From assembly GCA_020718185.1 (NCBI GenBank), contig DYSP01000002.1:44061-108060 (forward strand): 64,000 nucleotides of DNA. The letters are read 5' to 3'. Below, in pieces: positions 35,999 to 44,418 of this stretch. The notes below the pieces were generated by a model that ran no database searches, had not been told where the DNA came from, and saw only the letters and a program-made list of their open reading frames with translations. Made by a program: the position numbers and the translations under genes. Each line of letters starts with the position of its first letter. Within the stretch, counting starts at the first letter, position 1. The stretch is from Candidatus Odyssella sp. (GTDB taxonomy: Bacteria; Pseudomonadota; Alphaproteobacteria; Paracaedibacterales; Paracaedibacteraceae).

Positions 35999-37225
35999 TT
36001 AACATGCTACCTGTTGTTTTTTTCTTGGGCTAATAATAAGTAGCAGCACAAGAGCAAAAATTGCAATAAACATAGAGCAAATAAAAGACATAGATTCACC
36101 ATAATAATCTGCAATAAGTCCAGCGGCACTATTAGAAATAAGAACCGAACACGCACAGATAAGATAAAACATCCCAAATCCAGTACCACGTAAATCTTCA
36201 GGAACACTGTCTGCAACTAACGACATGAATAAACTTTGAGTGACAGCCATCTGAATCCCACAAAAAGCAACGCCAATTAAAACAGTTTCAACATTTGTGG
36301 CACAAGCAAGCAGCAAATCGCCAATGATTAAGCAGACAAACCCCACTGCCAAAACATTATAGCGACCAAATTTATCTGACAAGCGACCTGCAGGGTAAGA
36401 AAACAATGAGTATGTAGAGTTATAAATCAATAAAATAAGAGGCGTATTTTTACCAAGTAACCCAAAGTTCTGATGCGCATGCAAAACCATAATCGCTTCA
36501 CCAAGTTGAGCAATTAGGAAAATACAAACCACTATCATCAGCAACCAATAATCTCGACCCAGGCGAGGGATGTCAGACAGATGAATAGGTTTACGTAATT
36601 GTTTATCTTTCGGATGCATATTTTGTTCAGGTTCACGAATCATAAACATCATAATAAGAACAGATATCATAGCTGGAATAGATGCAAGCCAAAAGACCTT
36701 TTGATAGTCATCATCGTTCCAATACATCAACATAAGGCCAAATAAAGCCCCGAAAAATGATCCAGCCGTTCCAAGGCTAATACGCAAGCCATAACAAGCT
36801 CCACGAATAGGTTGAGGAGATAAATCTCCCACCAGTGCATCACGCGGTGAAGCTTGAATGCCATTACCCAAACGATCAAGAATTTTTGCCGCCACGACGG
36901 CATGAAATGTACTAAACATTGCCATTAAGGGACGACTTAACAAGCATAAGGTGTAACCCAAAACAATGATGAATTTACGGCGACGCAAATAATCACTATA
37001 GACGCCAGAAAGAAGTTTCGTGAGGAATGAAAGCCCTTCTACAATTCCTTCTAAAATACCGATCCAGCTTGTTGCAACGCCTAAGACAGATTTCATATAA
37101 ACCGGCACGAGACTACGAATCATAACGGAAGAAAGGTTGACGAAAAAAACCGCTATACCGAGACCCCAAATCGCGGGGGGAATAGAAGGAAGTTCTTGAT
37201 TTTCATTATCAGGATTAATCATCAT
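35999..37225 (-). CDS. Major facilitator superfamily transporter
   Basis: This is a 12-helix inner-membrane transporter of 408 residues. The MFS motif A is present as SGVYSDYLRRRKFIIVLGY between helices 2 and 3, with a second copy AGRLSDKFGRYNVLAVGF after helix 8. The stretch KILDRLGNGIQASPRDALVGDLSP marks a subgroup of uncharacterised bacterial transporters. The substrate is unknown. It is a single gene; host-associated bacteria often carry many such transporters for host metabolites, but nothing here specifies one. Confidence 0.85.
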   Translation of the reverse strand: MMINPDNENQELPSIPPAIWGLGIAVFFVNLSSVMIRSLVPVYMKSVLGVATSWIGILEGIVEGLSFLTKLLSGVYSDYLRRRKFIIVLGYTLCLLSRPLMAMFSTFHAVVAAKILDRLGNGIQASPRDALVGDLSPQPIRGACYGLRISLGTAGSFFGALFGLMLMYWNDDDYQKVFWLASIPAMISVLIMMFMIREPEQNMHPKDKQLRKPIHLSDIPRLGRDYWLLMIVVCIFLIAQLGEAIMVLHAHQNFGLLGKNTPLILLIYNSTYSLFSYPAGRLSDKFGRYNVLAVGFVCLIIGDLLLACATNVETVLIGVAFCGIQMAVTQSLFMSLVADSVPEDLRGTGFGMFYLICACSVLISNSAAGLIADYYGESMSFICSMFIAIFALVLLLIISPRKKQQVAC

Positions 37226-37571
37226 TCTCTCGGTTTTTTAAATGTAATTATTAGAAGGATTTTTTATGAAGAAATACAGGCGTAGATAAAGTGGTAGGTA
37301 TAAAAAAGGAAATAGAAAATGCTTAAGGATAAAATCCCATCTCAAGAACTTTTTTGCCACGAAAATAGTGCCAGTTTCTAAAAAACTTTACGGAGGTAAG
37401 AAAGACCGTAAACTACGCCAAATTTATATTTGCACAATGCCTTTTAATATAACATTTGTCAACACTTACATATGATGAATTTTAGATGCCCTTTATATTA
37501 ACTTTAACCTTGATTTATATTTTCTGAAAACTACCTCTTCAAAAAGGTACTTATATAAACTAAGGAATTTT
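37226..37571. other. Intergenic region between divergent genes, with a small stem-loop
   Basis: These 346 bp separate the divergent MFS gene and an exported-protein gene and should contain both promoters. A 7-bp stem, TTTACGG with CCGTAAA around a 12-nt loop, lies at about 37388-37413, and GGCGTAG at about 37279 is matched by CTACGCC at about 37415. No coding frame or known RNA was recognised. Confidence 0.4.
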
Positions 37572-38222
37572 ATGATGAGCAAATCTTATCTTAACCGTTT
37601 AAGCATGCTTTTGATTGGAGGAATTTTTTTAGGAGCGGCTTCTTTTCCGGCTAGTGCTCACTGGGCAAATATGAACATTGGTACATTTGACAGTGGTTCC
37701 ATGTCACAAAAGCTTCCTTTTGGTGGTGCTTTTACGTTTACTCAACCGGATATAAAAGAATTACCAGGACGATATGAGCGACGCACTAAATTATTTTTTG
37801 GGATTAAAGATGGTTATTGGTCTATCGCTTATAAAAGCAAGCCTGAGATCGATAGCGTTGATCGAAGGGAGTTTGGGCGTTTTGCTGTGACAGCTGTCGA
37901 TGTGGAAAATAATAAATATGAGATTACACTTTATGATGCTGATTTTAAGGGCGTTTATAATGCAAGTGTTAAGGAGTCAACTGGGTACGATCCTGATAGC
38001 TGCAAGGTTCCTCTTGCTGATAAAAAAGTTGTCGCTGTCATGGAATTAAGTGTTGATAAAGAGAAAAAGTTGGTTGTCGGTAAAGTGGTCAAAGCTGACT
38101 CCCAAGACATTAGTTATGTTGAAGGAGATATGTTGCCAATGAAGGCTAAGGACACTCTACCCAACATTCCTAATCACGATGGCTCTAAAGATTCTCATAA
38201 ATCTAAAGATTCTCAAATCTAA
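37572..38222 (+). CDS. Exported hypothetical protein with SKDS repeat tail
   Basis: This is an unrecognised protein of 216 residues with a clear signal peptide (LSMLLIGGIFLGAASFPASA). The mature domain (about 31-190) looks beta-rich, with GRYERRTKLFFGIKDGYWSI and GRFAVTAVDVENNKYEITLYDADFKG. It ends in a Ser/Lys/Asp repeat tail (GSKDSHKSKDSQ). The repeat unit is 18 nt, but the third copy follows after 16 nt, which shifts the frame and ends the protein at once. In the other frame the repeats run on and finish EACICPHL at 38286. The intact tail was therefore probably about 21 residues longer. Confidence 0.7.
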   Translation: MMSKSYLNRLSMLLIGGIFLGAASFPASAHWANMNIGTFDSGSMSQKLPFGGAFTFTQPDIKELPGRYERRTKLFFGIKDGYWSIAYKSKPEIDSVDRREFGRFAVTAVDVENNKYEITLYDADFKGVYNASVKESTGYDPDSCKVPLADKKVVAVMELSVDKEKKLVVGKVVKADSQDISYVEGDMLPMKAKDTLPNIPNHDGSKDSHKSKDSQI

Positions 38223-38262
38223 AGGCTCAAAGCATAAGTCTAAAGATTCCAAAGACTCTGAA
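38184..38262 (+). repeat. Tandem 18-nt TCTAAAGATTCTCATAAA-type repeats spanning a stop codon
   Basis: TCTAAAG recurs at 38184, 38202, 38218 and 38239. The spacings are 18, 16 and 21 nt. The 16-nt step lacks two bases compared with the first unit and is where the reading frame is lost. Confidence 0.7.
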
Positions 38263-38309
38263 GCTTGTATTTGTCCTCACCTTTAAAATTTTCTTAGTAA
38301 CGATCAGAT

Positions 38310-38351
38310 GAGGCTTTATTGAAAAGAATAAATGTTTTCCAATAAAGCCTC
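38310..38351. terminator. Bidirectional terminator hairpin
   Basis: A long stem, GAGGCTTTATTG with CAATAAAGCCTC, is extended by AAAA/TTTT and has a short loop. It lies between the convergent exported-protein gene and gatB, so it can serve both. Confidence 0.75.
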
Positions 38352-38392
38352 TGCTTTAATAAATGCTCTCAAACACTCAATTTAATGTTGAA

Positions 38393-39874
38393 TTAACTCA
38401 ATTTTTTCTTTAATAAGTCATTTACAATAGCTGGATTTGCTTTTCCTTGTGTGGCTTTCATCGCAAGTCCTACAAAAAAACCAAATAGCTGTTGCTTGCC
38501 CGCACGATACTCCGCAACTTTATCTACATTTTCTAACATAAGCGTATCGATCATACTTTCAAGGGCATTAACATCAGTAATTTGCTTTAACCCTAGATCA
38601 TCAACCAATTGAATAGGAGATTTACCTGTTTCCCATAGTTTTAGAAATACATCTTTGGCAATTTTTCCAGAAATAGTTTCATCTAAGATTAAATCGACAA
38701 GCTCAGCCAGATGGGCTGGTATTAACCTCATGGTCTCAATCGTTTCTCCTTCGCGGTTCAACGCACCGAAAACCTCACCCATTAACCAATTTGCAATTTG
38801 TTTGGCTGCTTGTTGCTTGTTTGTAGCTTTACTGACCGCAACGGCTGTTTCATAAAAGGCAGCTATTTCTTGTTCGCTGACTAAAACAAACGCGTCATAT
38901 TTTGGCAAACCAAAGCTATCCATTAACCGTTGTTGTTTTGCATCGGGCAATTCAGGCAATGTGGCTTTAATTTTTTCAATACGTTCTTCGGTCAATCGCA
39001 GTGGTGGTAAATCGGGGTCAGGGAAATAACGGTAATCATGCGCATCTTCTTTGCTACGCATTGATCGTGTAACACCTTTTCCCGCATCAAAAAGGCGTGT
39101 CTCTTGTGCAATTTTACCGCCATCTTCTAAAATTTCCATTTGCCGCTGAATTTCAAAGTCCACAGCTTGACCTAAGAAACGAATAGAGTTGACGTTTTTA
39201 ATTTCAGCGCGTGTTCCAAGCGCCTCTCCTGGGCGACGCAATGAAATGTTGGCATCAACACGTAAACTGCCTTGTTCCATATTGCCATCACAGGTGCCAA
39301 GATAACGCAAAATAGTCCGCAATTTTTTAACATACGCCATCGCTTCGGCGGTGGAACGAATGTCGGGTTCAGACACAATTTCCATCAGCGCAATACCACA
39401 ACGATTGAGGTCAATATAGGTTTTTGTGGGATGAAGATCGTGCGTACTTTTCCCTGCATCCATTTCTAAATGTAGGCGTGTCACCCCAATACGTTTAGAT
39501 TCACCATTTTCCAGATCAATATCTAAATATCCTTCACCAACAATTGGTCGTGTAAATTGAGAAATCTGATAACCGCAGGGAAGGTCAGCATAAAAATAAT
39601 TCTTGCGATCAAAAACCGAAAATTGGTTGATTTGTGCATTAATGCCAAGGCCGGTTTTAATGGCCTGGTCAACGCAAACATGATTTAAAACAGGTAACAT
39701 GCCTGGCATGGCTGTGCCAAAAAAACCTACTTGAGTATTGGGCTCAGCACCAAAGGTAACGGAACAACCATCAAATAACTTAGTGGTAGAGGTAACTTGG
39801 GCATGGACTTCTAAGCCAATAACGACTTCCCATAAACTGGTGCGTCCTTGAATAAGATTTGTTGTATCTTGCAT
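38393..39874 (-). CDS. gatB: Asp-tRNA(Asn)/Glu-tRNA(Gln) amidotransferase subunit B
   Basis: GatB recognises mischarged tRNA and phosphorylates the carboxylate before amidation. The start [10 protein letters not shown] at 39874 lies 1 bp after the gatA stop; the longer track frame would run into gatA. Motifs are [20 protein letters not shown], the catalytic-domain [10 protein letters not shown] and [14 protein letters not shown], and the Glu/His-rich [14 protein letters not shown]. The C-terminal YqeY-like tRNA-binding domain (about 345-493) is present, so the protein is full length at 493 residues. It is the last gene of gatCAB. Confidence 0.96.
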
Positions 39875-39875
39875 A

Positions 39876-41363
39876 TTAGGCAGCCTTTCCAAGGTTGTGA
39901 ACTTGCGATGTAAAATTAGCACATTCTTCTAAAGCTAAGCTGGCATTTAACAGATTTTGCTCAGACATAGCTGGCCCAATTAATTGCAACCCAAGAGGTA
40001 ATCCTTTTTCATCCAGACCTGCTGGAATAGAAATACCGGGCAGATTTGCTAAATTGACAGTCACAGTGAAGATGTCGTTAAGGAACATTGTAATAGGATC
40101 CGTTGGTTTTTCATCCATAGCAAAGGCTGACCCTGGCGTTGTGGGGGTGAGCAACAAGTCAACGTCTTTGAAAACACGCTTAAAATCTTCAGCGATAAGA
40201 CTTCGAATTCGCTGTGCTTTTAAATAATAGGCATCATAATAACCAGCTGATAGCACATATGTACCAATCATCAAACGACGTTGAACTTCAGCGCCAAAGC
40301 CAGCAGCGCGTGTATTTTCATATAACTCGTCCAATGTCTTACCCTCAACACGAAGTCCATAGCGAACACCATCATAGCGTGCCAGGTTTGAAGATGCTTC
40401 AGCGGGTGCAATAATATAATATGTAGGAAGCGCGTGAGGTGTCATCGGAAGGCTAACTTCTTGAACTGTGGCGCCGCAACTTTTCAACCAATCAATACCT
40501 TGTTGAACAAGAGCAGCTGTTGTTGCTGACAGATTTTCTAAATATTCTTTGGGGATACCAATTCTCAATCCTTTCACATTTTGATTGAGCTGCCCTAGAA
40601 AATCATAACGCGGTTGCGAAAGTGAGGTAGCATCCCAAGGATCATAACTGGCCATTGTTTGTAACATTAAAGCCGCATCGCGTACGGTATGGGTAAGGGG
40701 GCCTGCTTGATCAAGAGAAGAGGCAAATGCAACCATGCCGCGCCTGGAACATAAGCCATAGGTAGGTTTAATGCCAACCAATCCGCAATACGCTGCAGGC
40801 TGACGAATGGATCCACCTGTATCAGAGGCTGTCGCAGCAAGACAAAGCTTACCCGCAACGGCTGCTGCTGATCCACCGGACGAGCCACCAGGCACTAAGT
40901 TCTTTTCTGGGCGATTTTTTTCCCGCCACGGGTTTATACAATCCCCGAAATAACTCGTCATATTTGACGACCCCATTGCAAATTCATCCATGTTGGTTTT
41001 ACCAAGCATGACCGCGCCGGCATCAAACAGGTTTTGAGTCACTGTAGATTCATACGATGGTACGAAATTTTCAAGAATTTTTGACCCAGCTGTTGTACGC
41101 ACGTCTTTTGTGCAAAACAAATCCTTAATACCTAAGGGTAAACCTTCCAAAGGTCGTGCTGTGCCCTGTTTCAAGTGGTTATCTGATTGTTTGGCTTGAT
41201 CCAAGGCAAGGTCAGGTGTTTGTGTGATATAGGCATTTAGATGTTGATTCTGAGCCATGTTGTCAAGAAAGGCTTGGGTTAAGTCAACGGCAGAAAAGTC
41301 TTTATTTTGCAAACCATCGCGAGCTTCAATAAGCGTTAACTCAGTTAATTTTGTTTTTGTCAT
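39876..41363 (-). CDS. gatA: Asp-tRNA(Asn)/Glu-tRNA(Gln) amidotransferase subunit A
   Basis: GatA is the glutaminase that supplies ammonia for amidation. Its 495 residues belong to the amidase signature family. The catalytic Lys is in [21 protein letters not shown], and the cis-Ser and nucleophile Ser are in [15 protein letters not shown] and [15 protein letters not shown]. The C-terminal part, [20 protein letters not shown], is conserved. Together with gatC and gatB it shows that Gln-tRNA or Asn-tRNA, or both, are made by the indirect route here. Confidence 0.96.
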
Positions 41364-41374
41364 TGGTTGGTTCC

Positions 41375-41662
41375 TTATTCAACAACTTTTGGCACGGCAA
41401 ACATATCATGGGCTTTTTCTGGCGCATTGGCGAGAACAGCTTCAACTACATTTCCATCACAAATAATGTCTTCACGCTCTGGTATTTGTCGTTCTTGCTG
41501 ATCAGTGAAAATTTCTGCAGCAGAGGTGTCAACTTGTTGAAGTTGGTCAATCCAATGCAAAATGCCATTTAATTGTTGTTGCATGCTGACCAAACCTTCA
41601 TCTGAAAATTTCAAACGAGAGAGGCGAGAAACCTTTTTCACATCTTCAAGAGTTAACGACAT
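41375..41662 (-). CDS. gatC: Asp-tRNA(Asn)/Glu-tRNA(Gln) amidotransferase subunit C
   Basis: This is a 95-residue structural subunit that wraps between GatA and GatB. The family pattern is clear: [41 protein letters not shown] and an end region with REDIICDG. It is the first gene of the operon, 11 bp upstream of gatA, and lies 32 bp from the start side of exonuclease III. Confidence 0.93.
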
Positions 41663-41694
41663 TGTAAACCTTTTGTTTAAGTTGAAACCAAATA

Positions 41695-42465
41695 TTAAAC
41701 GTCAATCGAACACCATACCGGTGCATGGTCCGATGCTTTTTCTTTACCACGAGGTGCTTTGTCAATACCAGTGCTTTCCAGTCGATCTGTTGCTTGTGGT
41801 GACAATAAAAGATGATCAATGCGCAACCCTGCATCATTTGGCCAAGCTTGGCTACGGTAATCCCACCAACTATAGAGTTTTTCGTGAGGATGGTCGATAC
41901 GAAATCCATCACGATAGCCCAGATTTAATAATGCGTAAAAAGCTTTGCGTTCAGGGATCGAACATAAAACATCGCCTGTCCAGGCTTTTGGATCAGCAAC
42001 ATCTAAATCTGTTGGGGCAATATTATAATCTCCACCGATCACAACAGCTTCTTCGTATTGCAGTAACGATTTCATATGTTGGTGAAGTCGTTCTAGAAAG
42101 ACCAATTTATAGGCATATTTATCAGTGCCAACTGCCTGACCATTGGGTACATAAACAGAGGCGACTCGCACCCCATTTGTAACCGCTTCGATATAGCGTG
42201 CTTGAATGTCTTCTTCAAAAAAAGTAAGACCGCGTTGTACATCTTCAATCGGAGATTTAGAAAGAATCGCAACGCCATTGAATGTTTTTTGTCCATGAAT
42301 AGCAATGTTATACCCCAGATCCTCTATTGCCTCTAACGGAAAAGAATGAGCTTCGCATTTGATTTCTTGAAGCAACATGAGATCAGGTTGGTGATCTCGT
42401 AGCCACTCAGTTAAAATGTCAAGGCGCGCACGAACAGAATTTACATTCCAAGTTACAATTTTCAT
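41695..42465 (-). CDS. xth: Exodeoxyribonuclease III
   Basis: This is a base-excision repair enzyme with AP endonuclease and 3'-5' exonuclease activity. Its 256 residues show the metal and catalytic motifs of the family: MKIVTWNVNSVRARL, LMLLQEIKCE, GGDYNIAPTDLDV, LRIDHLLLS and the final SDHAPVWCSI. AWPNDAGLRIDHL is the usual approach to the catalytic Asp. It lies between erpA and gatC on the same strand with small gaps, so the genes may be co-transcribed. Confidence 0.95.
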   Translation of the reverse strand: MKIVTWNVNSVRARLDILTEWLRDHQPDLMLLQEIKCEAHSFPLEAIEDLGYNIAIHGQKTFNGVAILSKSPIEDVQRGLTFFEEDIQARYIEAVTNGVRVASVYVPNGQAVGTDKYAYKLVFLERLHQHMKSLLQYEEAVVIGGDYNIAPTDLDVADPKAWTGDVLCSIPERKAFYALLNLGYRDGFRIDHPHEKLYSWWDYRSQAWPNDAGLRIDHLLLSPQATDRLESTGIDKAPRGKEKASDHAPVWCSIDV

Positions 42466-42480
42466 AATTAGAACAATCTC

Positions 42481-42816
42481 TTAGATTGAAAAAGAATTAC
42501 CGCAACCGCAAGAGGCTGTGGCATTTGGATTTTTTAAAACAAAGCTTGATGACACCATGTCTTCTACATAATCAAGCATCGAGCCTTCCAACAACCCAAG
42601 CGAGACCTCATCAACAATAACTTCAGCGCCATTATGGGCAAAAATCAGATCATCAGATAGTTGTTGATCATCTAATACAAAATGATATTGAAAGCCAGAA
42701 CAGCCACCGCCTGAAACACTAATTCTTAGACGCAAATTATCTTGTTTAACTTCTTCACTTAGCAGCGTCAAGATGCGCTTGGCAGCATTATCAGTGACAG
42801 AAAATTGATGTATCAT
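42481..42816 (-). CDS. erpA: Iron-sulfur cluster insertion protein (ErpA/IscA type)
   Basis: This is an A-type carrier that hands [Fe-S] clusters to apoproteins such as those in SdhB. The 111 residues contain the three ligand Cys, in GGGCSGFQYHF and the C-terminal SCGCGNSFSI, the exact pattern of HesB/IscA/SufA proteins. ErpA is preferred to SufA because the gene is outside any suf or isc operon, but sequence alone does not settle it. It is upstream of xth by 15 bp. Confidence 0.88.
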   Translation of the reverse strand: MIHQFSVTDNAAKRILTLLSEEVKQDNLRLRISVSGGGCSGFQYHFVLDDQQLSDDLIFAHNGAEVIVDEVSLGLLEGSMLDYVEDMVSSSFVLKNPNATASCGCGNSFSI

Positions 42817-42887
42817 TATTTTTCCCCTTCAACCTATAAAATACAGCAATTCTGCAAGGCTTCAAGACATTTTTAATGGAAATTTTT

Positions 42888-43143
42888 TATAATACAGAGA
42901 TATCAGCGATAACATTTCCTGGATCTATAAATTTTATGACAAATTGCTTGAGTTAATTTTAAGGCTTGTCGTTGGTGTTTTACTTGTTGACCAATACGAC
43001 GTTCAATCTTGCAAATCATAAGGGGAACGCAATGATGTTTGAGGATTTCTAAAGCTGACGTTAAAGTAACCCCACGCGGATGTCTAATAAAAAGGTCAGT
43101 CTTCAGGCGATATTCAAACAAATCCATATAAGAAACAGCTTTT
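42888..43143 (-). pseudogene. Fragmented ghost of a LysR / unknown / XRE locus
   Basis: Read on the minus strand, four pieces follow in the same order as the locus at 29.6-31.8 kb. First comes a LysR fragment (MDLFEYRLKTDLFIRHPRG, compare MSLFEHRVKTDLFIRHSRG). Second is the last bases of the unknown gene (CTCAAACATCATTGC). Third is the XRE start (MICKIERRIGQQVKHQRQ). Fourth, after a deletion of about 200 bp, is the XRE 3' end including its stop. About 2 kb of sequence has collapsed to about 250 bp by three internal deletions. Nothing functional remains. It lies between erpA and pdhC. Confidence 0.85.
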
Positions 43144-43146
43144 GTC

Positions 43147-43166
43147 ATGCCAGCGAAAGCTGGCAT
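43147..43166. repeat. Perfect 8-bp palindromic hairpin with GAAA loop
   Basis: ATGCCAGC-GAAA-GCTGGCAT lies 10 bp after the pdhC stop and right at the edge of the LysR ghost. It resembles the short intergenic palindromes (translated as MPAFAGMT) widespread in proteobacteria. It may also end the pdh transcript, but it lacks a T-run. Confidence 0.6.
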
Positions 43167-43176
43167 CCATGTATAG

Positions 43177-44418
43177 TTAAACCAATAATCTTAATGGATC
43201 TTCGATCAGTGATTTAAAAGCTTCGAGGAATCGCGCACCTACGGCACCATCAACCGCACGATGATCAGCAGATAAAGTACAACTCATAACAGTCGCAACC
43301 GCCAATACACCATCCTTAACTATCGGGCGCTTCTCTCCCGCACCAACGGCTAAGATACATGCCTGCGGTGGATTGATAATCGCACTAAATTGTTTGATAC
43401 CATACATACCAAGATTAGAAATTGTAAAACTACCACCTTGATAATCTTCTGGCGCAAGTTTACCAGCGCGGGCTTTTTCAGCCAAAATTTTTACTTCAGC
43501 GGAAATATCTTTCATTGATTTAAGATTTGCTGAGCGCACCACTGGTGTTACTAACCCACCATCAATGGCTACCGCCACACTAATATCAGCTGCTTGGAAT
43601 TGACGAATGTGCGTATCCATCCATGAAACATTGGCTTCTGGTACTTTGATCAATGCTAACGCACAAGCACGCACAATGAAATCATTCACTGAAAGTTTAC
43701 CACCCTCAAGGCGAACATTCACATCTGAACGTAAAGCAAGCAACGCGTCCAGCTCGCAATCCACATTCAAATAAAAATGAGGGACCTGTTGTTTTGATTC
43801 CGTCAATCGACGAGCAATCACTTTGCGCATGTTGTTAAGGGGTAAATCCGCATAACCAGAGTCACCATATACGGTGGTTGGCGCAGGGGGGGCAGAAGTG
43901 CTTTTAGAAGGTGTAAGAACTGCTTGTTCAACATCTGCTTTGATAATTCGACCCCGAGGACCTGAACCAGTGATACTAGTTAAATTGACTTGATTTTGTT
44001 CTGCCACGCGTTTAGCCAACGGACTCGCAAAGAGGCGTTCCCCTGTTGTTGAATTAGCGGAAGTAGCAGCACTGGGTGCATCAGCAAATTTTGGTGCAGA
44101 GGCAGATGCAGTTGATTGTGCAGAAACAGCAACACCTGCTGTAGAAATAAACGCATCTATCCTTGCTGCATCTTCACCTTCTTCTAGCAATACCGCAATC
44201 AAACTATTAACTTTGACACCTTCAGCCCCCGCAGCCACAATAATTTTAGCAAGTGTTCCTTCTTCCACTACCTCAATTTCCATTGTCGCTTTATCGGTTT
44301 CTATTTCTGCTAAGACTTGACCTGATTTAACGGTATCTCCTTCGGACTTTAACCAACGAACAAGATTTCCTTCTGTCATTGTTGGACTTAAAGCAGGCAT
44401 CAAAATTTTTACTGGCAT
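43177..44418 (-). CDS. pdhC: Pyruvate dehydrogenase E2, dihydrolipoamide acetyltransferase
   Basis: This is the core of the pyruvate dehydrogenase complex, transferring the acetyl group to CoA. The 413 residues hold one N-terminal lipoyl domain (lipoyl-Lys in EIETDKATMEIEV), an Ala/Ser-rich linker, a peripheral-subunit-binding domain (SPLAKRVAEQNQVNLTSITG) and the catalytic domain ending ADHRAVDGAVGARFLE with the active-site His and Asp. The first residues MPVKILMPALSPTMTEGNL are typical. It is the last gene of pdhABC; the E3 gene is not in the window. Confidence 0.95.
   Translation of the reverse strand: MPVKILMPALSPTMTEGNLVRWLKSEGDTVKSGQVLAEIETDKATMEIEVVEEGTLAKIIVAAGAEGVKVNSLIAVLLEEGEDAARIDAFISTAGVAVSAQSTASASAPKFADAPSAATSANSTTGERLFASPLAKRVAEQNQVNLTSITGSGPRGRIIKADVEQAVLTPSKSTSAPPAPTTVYGDSGYADLPLNNMRKVIARRLTESKQQVPHFYLNVDCELDALLALRSDVNVRLEGGKLSVNDFIVRACALALIKVPEANVSWMDTHIRQFQAADISVAVAIDGGLVTPVVRSANLKSMKDISAEVKILAEKARAGKLAPEDYQGGSFTISNLGMYGIKQFSAIINPPQACILAVGAGEKRPIVKDGVLAVATVMSCTLSADHRAVDGAVGARFLEAFKSLIEDPLRLLV

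Follow-up and report, generated by a model that had tools for sequence, protein, structure and literature searches.

A stretch of approximately 250 bases located between the housekeeping genes pdhC and erpA in the analyzed window (the whole 64,000-nucleotide stretch of Candidatus Odyssella sp. DNA) is very probably a non-functional pseudogene cluster, i.e. the deletion-shortened remnant of an extra copy of a multi-copy LysR-Unk-XRE gene cluster of Paracaedibacteraceae. This identification is based on comparison with intact copies, and nothing was found that weighs against it. The genome (1.56 Mb) is distributed over 52 contigs; the intact copy present in the window is that of contig C19, and the copies on other contigs are named accordingly. 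The remnant (42881-43127, minus strand) carries ordered pieces of LysR, of the Unk tail with the XRE head, and of the XRE tail. The genes of the intact cluster and the pieces of the remnant are as follows:

29569..30441, plus strand: intact LysR gene (Pfam PF00126 and PF03466, above cut-off)
30864..31460, plus strand: intact Unk gene (198 aa), uncharacterised, of a family expanded in Paracaedibacteraceae
31457..31777, plus strand: intact gene of an XRE-type regulator (Pfam HTH_3, E 5e-12), with a 4-base overlap with Unk
42881..42949, minus strand: XRE tail, including the stop codon and the next 6 bases (87% identity to 31715-31783 over 69 bp, 89% to C37 over 56 bp)
42947..43019, minus strand: XRE head, 25 codons from the ATG (within a 91% match to 31426-31529; also C37:33904-34007)
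43016..43050, minus strand: Unk tail overlapping the XRE start (within the same 91% match)
43069..43127, minus strand: LysR fragment, end of the helix-turn-helix region, codons about 35-55 (95% over 59 bp to C26:712-770)

BLASTN comparison of the reverse complement of positions 42831-43180 with the whole window revealed, apart from the query itself, three collinear stretches of the intact block and no further matches: 43072-43127 aligned with 29671-29726 in LysR (79%, E 6e-8), 42947-43050 with 31426-31529, which spans the Unk tail, the stop/start overlap and the XRE head (91%, E 4e-31), and 42881-42949 with 31715-31783, which covers the XRE tail, the stop codon and 6 bases past it (87%, E 4e-16). 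More than one fragment is thus homologous to the 29.6-31.8 kb block. As the XRE head and tail are joined, the three alignments comprise four fragments in block order, as the initial annotation had proposed, and the Unk/XRE junction, which it had described as kept, lies inside the second of them. In a control, 350-base segments taken at steps of 175 bases across the 64 kb were scored against the intact block. Outside the block, a LysR paralogue (244-1113) reached 138 bits and the remnant site 125 bits, while the next-best place elsewhere in the window scored only 35 bits. Given the collinear matches and these control scores, the homology is real and not a product of chance. Matches of the remnant pieces in the whole genome had E-values of 1e-14 to 1e-36.

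Read from pdhC towards erpA, the site is composed of a palindromic repeat of approximately 60 bases (described below), the 59-base LysR piece, a short stretch of perhaps still LysR sequence, the Unk tail with the XRE start, the first 25 codons of XRE, and its tail. The truncations and frameshift expected of pseudogenes are present: the LysR piece lacks both ends, Unk is reduced to its tail, and the XRE head is joined to the XRE tail with the 188 bp between them missing, a length that is not a multiple of three and therefore shifts the frame. The expected homology is present as well, the pieces being 87-95% identical to intact copies. The lost parts are the 5' part of LysR, approximately 1.7 kb that separated the LysR and Unk pieces, and the 188 bp within XRE. 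Because the surviving pieces have retained this level of identity while the rest was deleted, the loss was chiefly by internal deletion, which agrees with the proposal that the copy decayed by such deletions rather than by point mutations alone. The XRE head differs from that of C19 at 6 of 75 sites (4 nonsynonymous), a very short stretch for judging selection. At each deletion junction, the two joined sequences are similar: TGGATTTGTTT is common to the LysR piece and, nearly, to the repeat copy on contig C4, CTCAAACAT agrees with the Unk tail and also with LysR continuing in a plausible way, and the XRE junction has CAA(G). Protein alignment indicates that the LysR homology may extend slightly into the Unk tail. 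In all, the copy lost most of its length by at least three deletions ending at short shared sequences.

Gene remnants and split genes, reduced mainly by deletion, have been described in obligate intracellular bacteria, Rickettsia among them (PMC2374718; PMC2447293). The remnant resembles those of the Rickettsia type in consisting of short collinear intergenic pieces, in being deletion-driven and in being able to leave accidental small frames. It differs from them in that three neighboring genes left ordered pieces and in that full paralogues persist in the genome. By itself, the remnant is ordinary decay, usual in such bacteria; its setting is useful. It marks a regulator-cluster family that was gained, recombined and lost within one protist-symbiont lineage and that is not in the family libraries searched, and it may connect a chromosome inversion with recombination among the copies. 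Of more interest than the remnant is probably the Unk family.

The genome under study is assigned to the genus Candidatus Paracaedibacter and is closely related to the amoeba symbiont P. symbiosus. In whole-genome searches, Unk was present in five of the seven Paracaedibacteraceae genomes (7 genes in the genome under study, 6 in P. symbiosus, and 9, 11 and 7 in three more), and none was found in the two others. The genome under study also contains XRE and LysR paralogues, and most of its Unk genes lie beside LysR and/or XRE. Across the Unk loci of three genomes (n = 22), XRE is adjacent in 18 and LysR is located within approximately 2 kb in 15. Some Unk loci are flanked by XRE on both sides, and LysR is sometimes oriented away. 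Another LysR paralogue from this subfamily, at 244-1113, has neither Unk nor XRE beside it in the window. In one conserved neighborhood shared by the genome under study and P. symbiosus (L172/L157), Unk occupies different places approximately 5 kb apart, each of which is empty in the other genome. Relatives likewise contain broken Unk genes: at L158:3858-5468 a fragment next to an XRE gene and a truncated Unk, at G004:C1:1304889-1305548 a copy with one stop and frameshifts, and at G001:C50:83416-83697 a copy with six stops.

No relatives of Unk were found in Pfam, NCBIfam, PADLOC or PDB, nor in a scan of a genome collection, whose patterns reach close relatives only, and a literature search returned no paper on the LysR-Unk-XRE cluster. 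Weak, distant matches to the Unk profile (3-8 per genome in G010, G017, G024 and G027, all from a single further family within the order) suggest a distant, likewise multi-copy Unk branch in that family. When the Unk-XRE pair was tested as a toxin-antitoxin system, Unk had no toxin-related match in the same four databases, and its structure model, built from a single sequence, was unusable (pLDDT 35). The dN/dS values among intact copies (0.18-0.43) show a signature of purifying selection on several of them. Gene order and domains allow a guess at the role of the intact cluster: LysR would probably sense a metabolite and control the translationally coupled Unk-XRE pair, in which XRE would be a local DNA-binding regulator.

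Between the same copies, the silent divergence is 1.4-1.5 in LysR (saturated), 0.22-0.33 in Unk and 0.11-0.67 in XRE; Unk-XRE is thus young compared with LysR. At several places, Unk occurs without XRE or without LysR. The window copy (C19) differs overall from the C37 copy at 73 of 875 sites and from the C47 copy at 137 of 914 sites, and it shares an identical tract with each:

31056-31198, plus strand: identical tract of 143 bases shared with C47 (longest identical runs; mosaic pattern)
31345..31660, plus strand: identical tract of 316 bases shared with C37 (longest identical runs versus permutation)

The identical runs are longer than permuted ones (p below 1/5000). This mosaic structure of the window copy points to recent gene conversion between dispersed copies or, with lower probability, to copies merged by the assembly; the 316-base exact repeat inside the intact block is a possible misjoin site for metagenome assembly. 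Owing to the contrast between saturated LysR and young Unk-XRE, the partial loci, the LysR flips and the gene conversion, the block is not a strict unit. Of the earlier claim that it is heritable as a unit, it holds that the cluster genes stay together, but they are not inherited strictly whole. We consider it rather unlikely that LysR-Unk-XRE is an undescribed cassette restricted to Paracaedibacteraceae that multiplies, undergoes gene conversion between copies, gives rise to inversions and leaves remnants, and that constitutes a main recombining repeat family of these genomes.

The LysR piece of the remnant shares 95% identity over 59 bp with the LysR gene at C26:712-770 (E 2.4e-20), versus 79% over 56 bp with 29671-29726 of the window, and it groups with the C26 LysR. 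The Unk-XRE part is equally near to the C19 and C37 copies, and the XRE stop codon with the bases after it fits C19 better than C37. We infer a lost copy whose LysR was near that of C26 and whose Unk-XRE was near those of C37/C19. The 29.6-31.8 kb copy is, to judge by these identities, a relative of the remnant and not its evident parent, and direct descent from it is contradicted by the LysR piece. The proposal that the block was once present twice is upheld by the same-order LysR, Unk and XRE pieces at the site, but the 29.6-31.8 kb copy was not their direct source. Since the nearest relatives differ between the LysR piece and the Unk-XRE pieces, a single event need not have given rise to all parts of the remnant. 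In C26, the LysR gene (L011:1-60, contig start) ends in a tandem repeat of approximately 10 bases, AAAATCAAAG, which extends past the contig edge, and C37 starts just upstream of Unk. Contig C37 carries prfA, contig C26 carries prmC, and a 10-kb span in P. symbiosus contains genes of both contigs. These features are suggestive of two halves of one block that was split by assembly, which the order LysR-Unk-XRE would fit; the join is no more than suggestive because the gene order of P. symbiosus differs there.

The surroundings of the site were compared with genomic stretches of relatives, and the inversion with one congeneric genome, that of P. symbiosus. The prediction that a relative would carry an intact copy between erpA and pdhC failed: erpA adjoins pdhC in none of the six family genomes, and 205-282 kb of the respective P. 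symbiosus contig contains no block sequence. In P. symbiosus, erpA-xth-gatCAB is located approximately 30 kb from pdhC, and ubiG-lysC-hom is near pdhC with an MFS gene between (erpA+ xth+ gatCAB+ ... hom- lysC- ubiG+ MFS- pdhCBA-), whereas the order in the window is ubiG- lysC+ hom+ ... gatBAC- xth- erpA- pdhCBA-. With the exception of the MFS gene, erpA-gatB and hom-ubiG are both flipped relative to pdhC in P. symbiosus. The segment concerned is:

31786..42816, no strand assigned: segment from ubiG to erpA, inverted versus P. symbiosus (gene order comparison)

At its left end lies the intact block (plus strand, 29.6-31.8 kb) and at its right end the remnant (minus strand, 42.9-43.1 kb), i.e. 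inverted copies are found at both ends, as in a repeat-mediated inversion. Inversions arise by recombination between dispersed inverted repeats, e.g. rRNA operons or insertion sequences. The present case is similar in that inverted copies flank the inverted segment and the copies exchange sequence; it is different in that a regulatory gene cluster would act as the repeat, the comparison involves one relative only and the MFS gene is unexplained. The inverted copies would have recombined, the 11 kb between them would have been flipped, erpA would thereby have come to lie beside pdhC, and the remnant copy would subsequently have decayed. We regard it as a tentative possibility, somewhat on the doubtful side, that recombination between the remnant copy and the intact copy inverted these 11 kb. 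The inversion is kept as no more than a proposal, since P. symbiosus, without a block copy in 205-282 kb, does not present the ancestral order with both copies in place, and its gene order need not be the one that preceded the inversion. Our estimate is further lowered by the generally unstable gene order and by the displaced MFS gene (35999-37225), which does not fit a single inversion; in addition, other breakpoints of the region lack the block.

Alternatively, erpA and pdhC may already have been neighbors when ordinary dispersed duplication or insertion placed a copy between them, where it decayed; the inversion of the adjoining segment would then be unrelated. We give this explanation, which competes with the inversion and not with the identity of the remnant, slightly less than an even chance. 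It accords with the instability of gene order in general and with the coming and going of Unk and LysR in conserved neighborhoods between the genome under study and P. symbiosus (L172/L157), but it leaves unexplained why two copies lie exactly at the segment ends in opposite orientation, and the copies demonstrably recombine.

Whichever way the copy arrived, the reading as a decayed remnant has to be weighed against a present function of the site. Two features are relevant here:

42906..43190, minus strand: stop-to-stop frame of 95 codons, in which the LysR piece is fused to the XRE head (translation)
43116..43173, minus strand: short dispersed repeat with an 8-bp hairpin, directly downstream of the pdhC stop codon (91% match to C4:21260-21315)

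It is very unlikely that the pdhABC or erpA genes now use the stretch as a regulatory or mRNA-end element. The 8-bp hairpin directly behind pdhC (core GCCAGCTTTCGCTGGC, 43149-43164; folding energy -16.8 kcal/mol, z -2.6) would suit such a role, but it is part of the repeat and not of the block pieces; within the remnant, no terminator-like or minus-strand promoter-like sites and no Rfam match were found. Even less credible, to the point of near-exclusion, is a functional short gene for a LysR-XRE chimeric peptide, since the open frame that contains both the LysR piece and the XRE head completes neither helix-turn-helix, cuts XRE after 25 codons with continuation out of frame, and has no counterpart in the P. 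symbiosus region examined. The 95-codon frame, which is matched by both family profiles, is taken as accidental. Altogether, the checks of frame, Rfam, folding and promoters/terminators lent no support to a chimeric peptide, an RNA element or a promoter, and the preferred interpretation remains that of a pseudogene cluster.

The palindromic repeat of approximately 60 bases lies between pdhC and the LysR piece and starts about at the pdhC stop codon. A MITE-like short mobile element was considered and rejected: the arrangement seen in the remnant occurs once, and the repeat alone recurs, once. REP-like short palindromic intergenic repeats occur in Proteobacteria; the present repeat resembles them in its hairpin of approximately 20 bases and its intergenic position behind a gene end, and differs from them in having just two copies in this genome (at most 3 mismatches), both intergenic, the second of which is located at C4:21260-21315 (L012:6255-6316).
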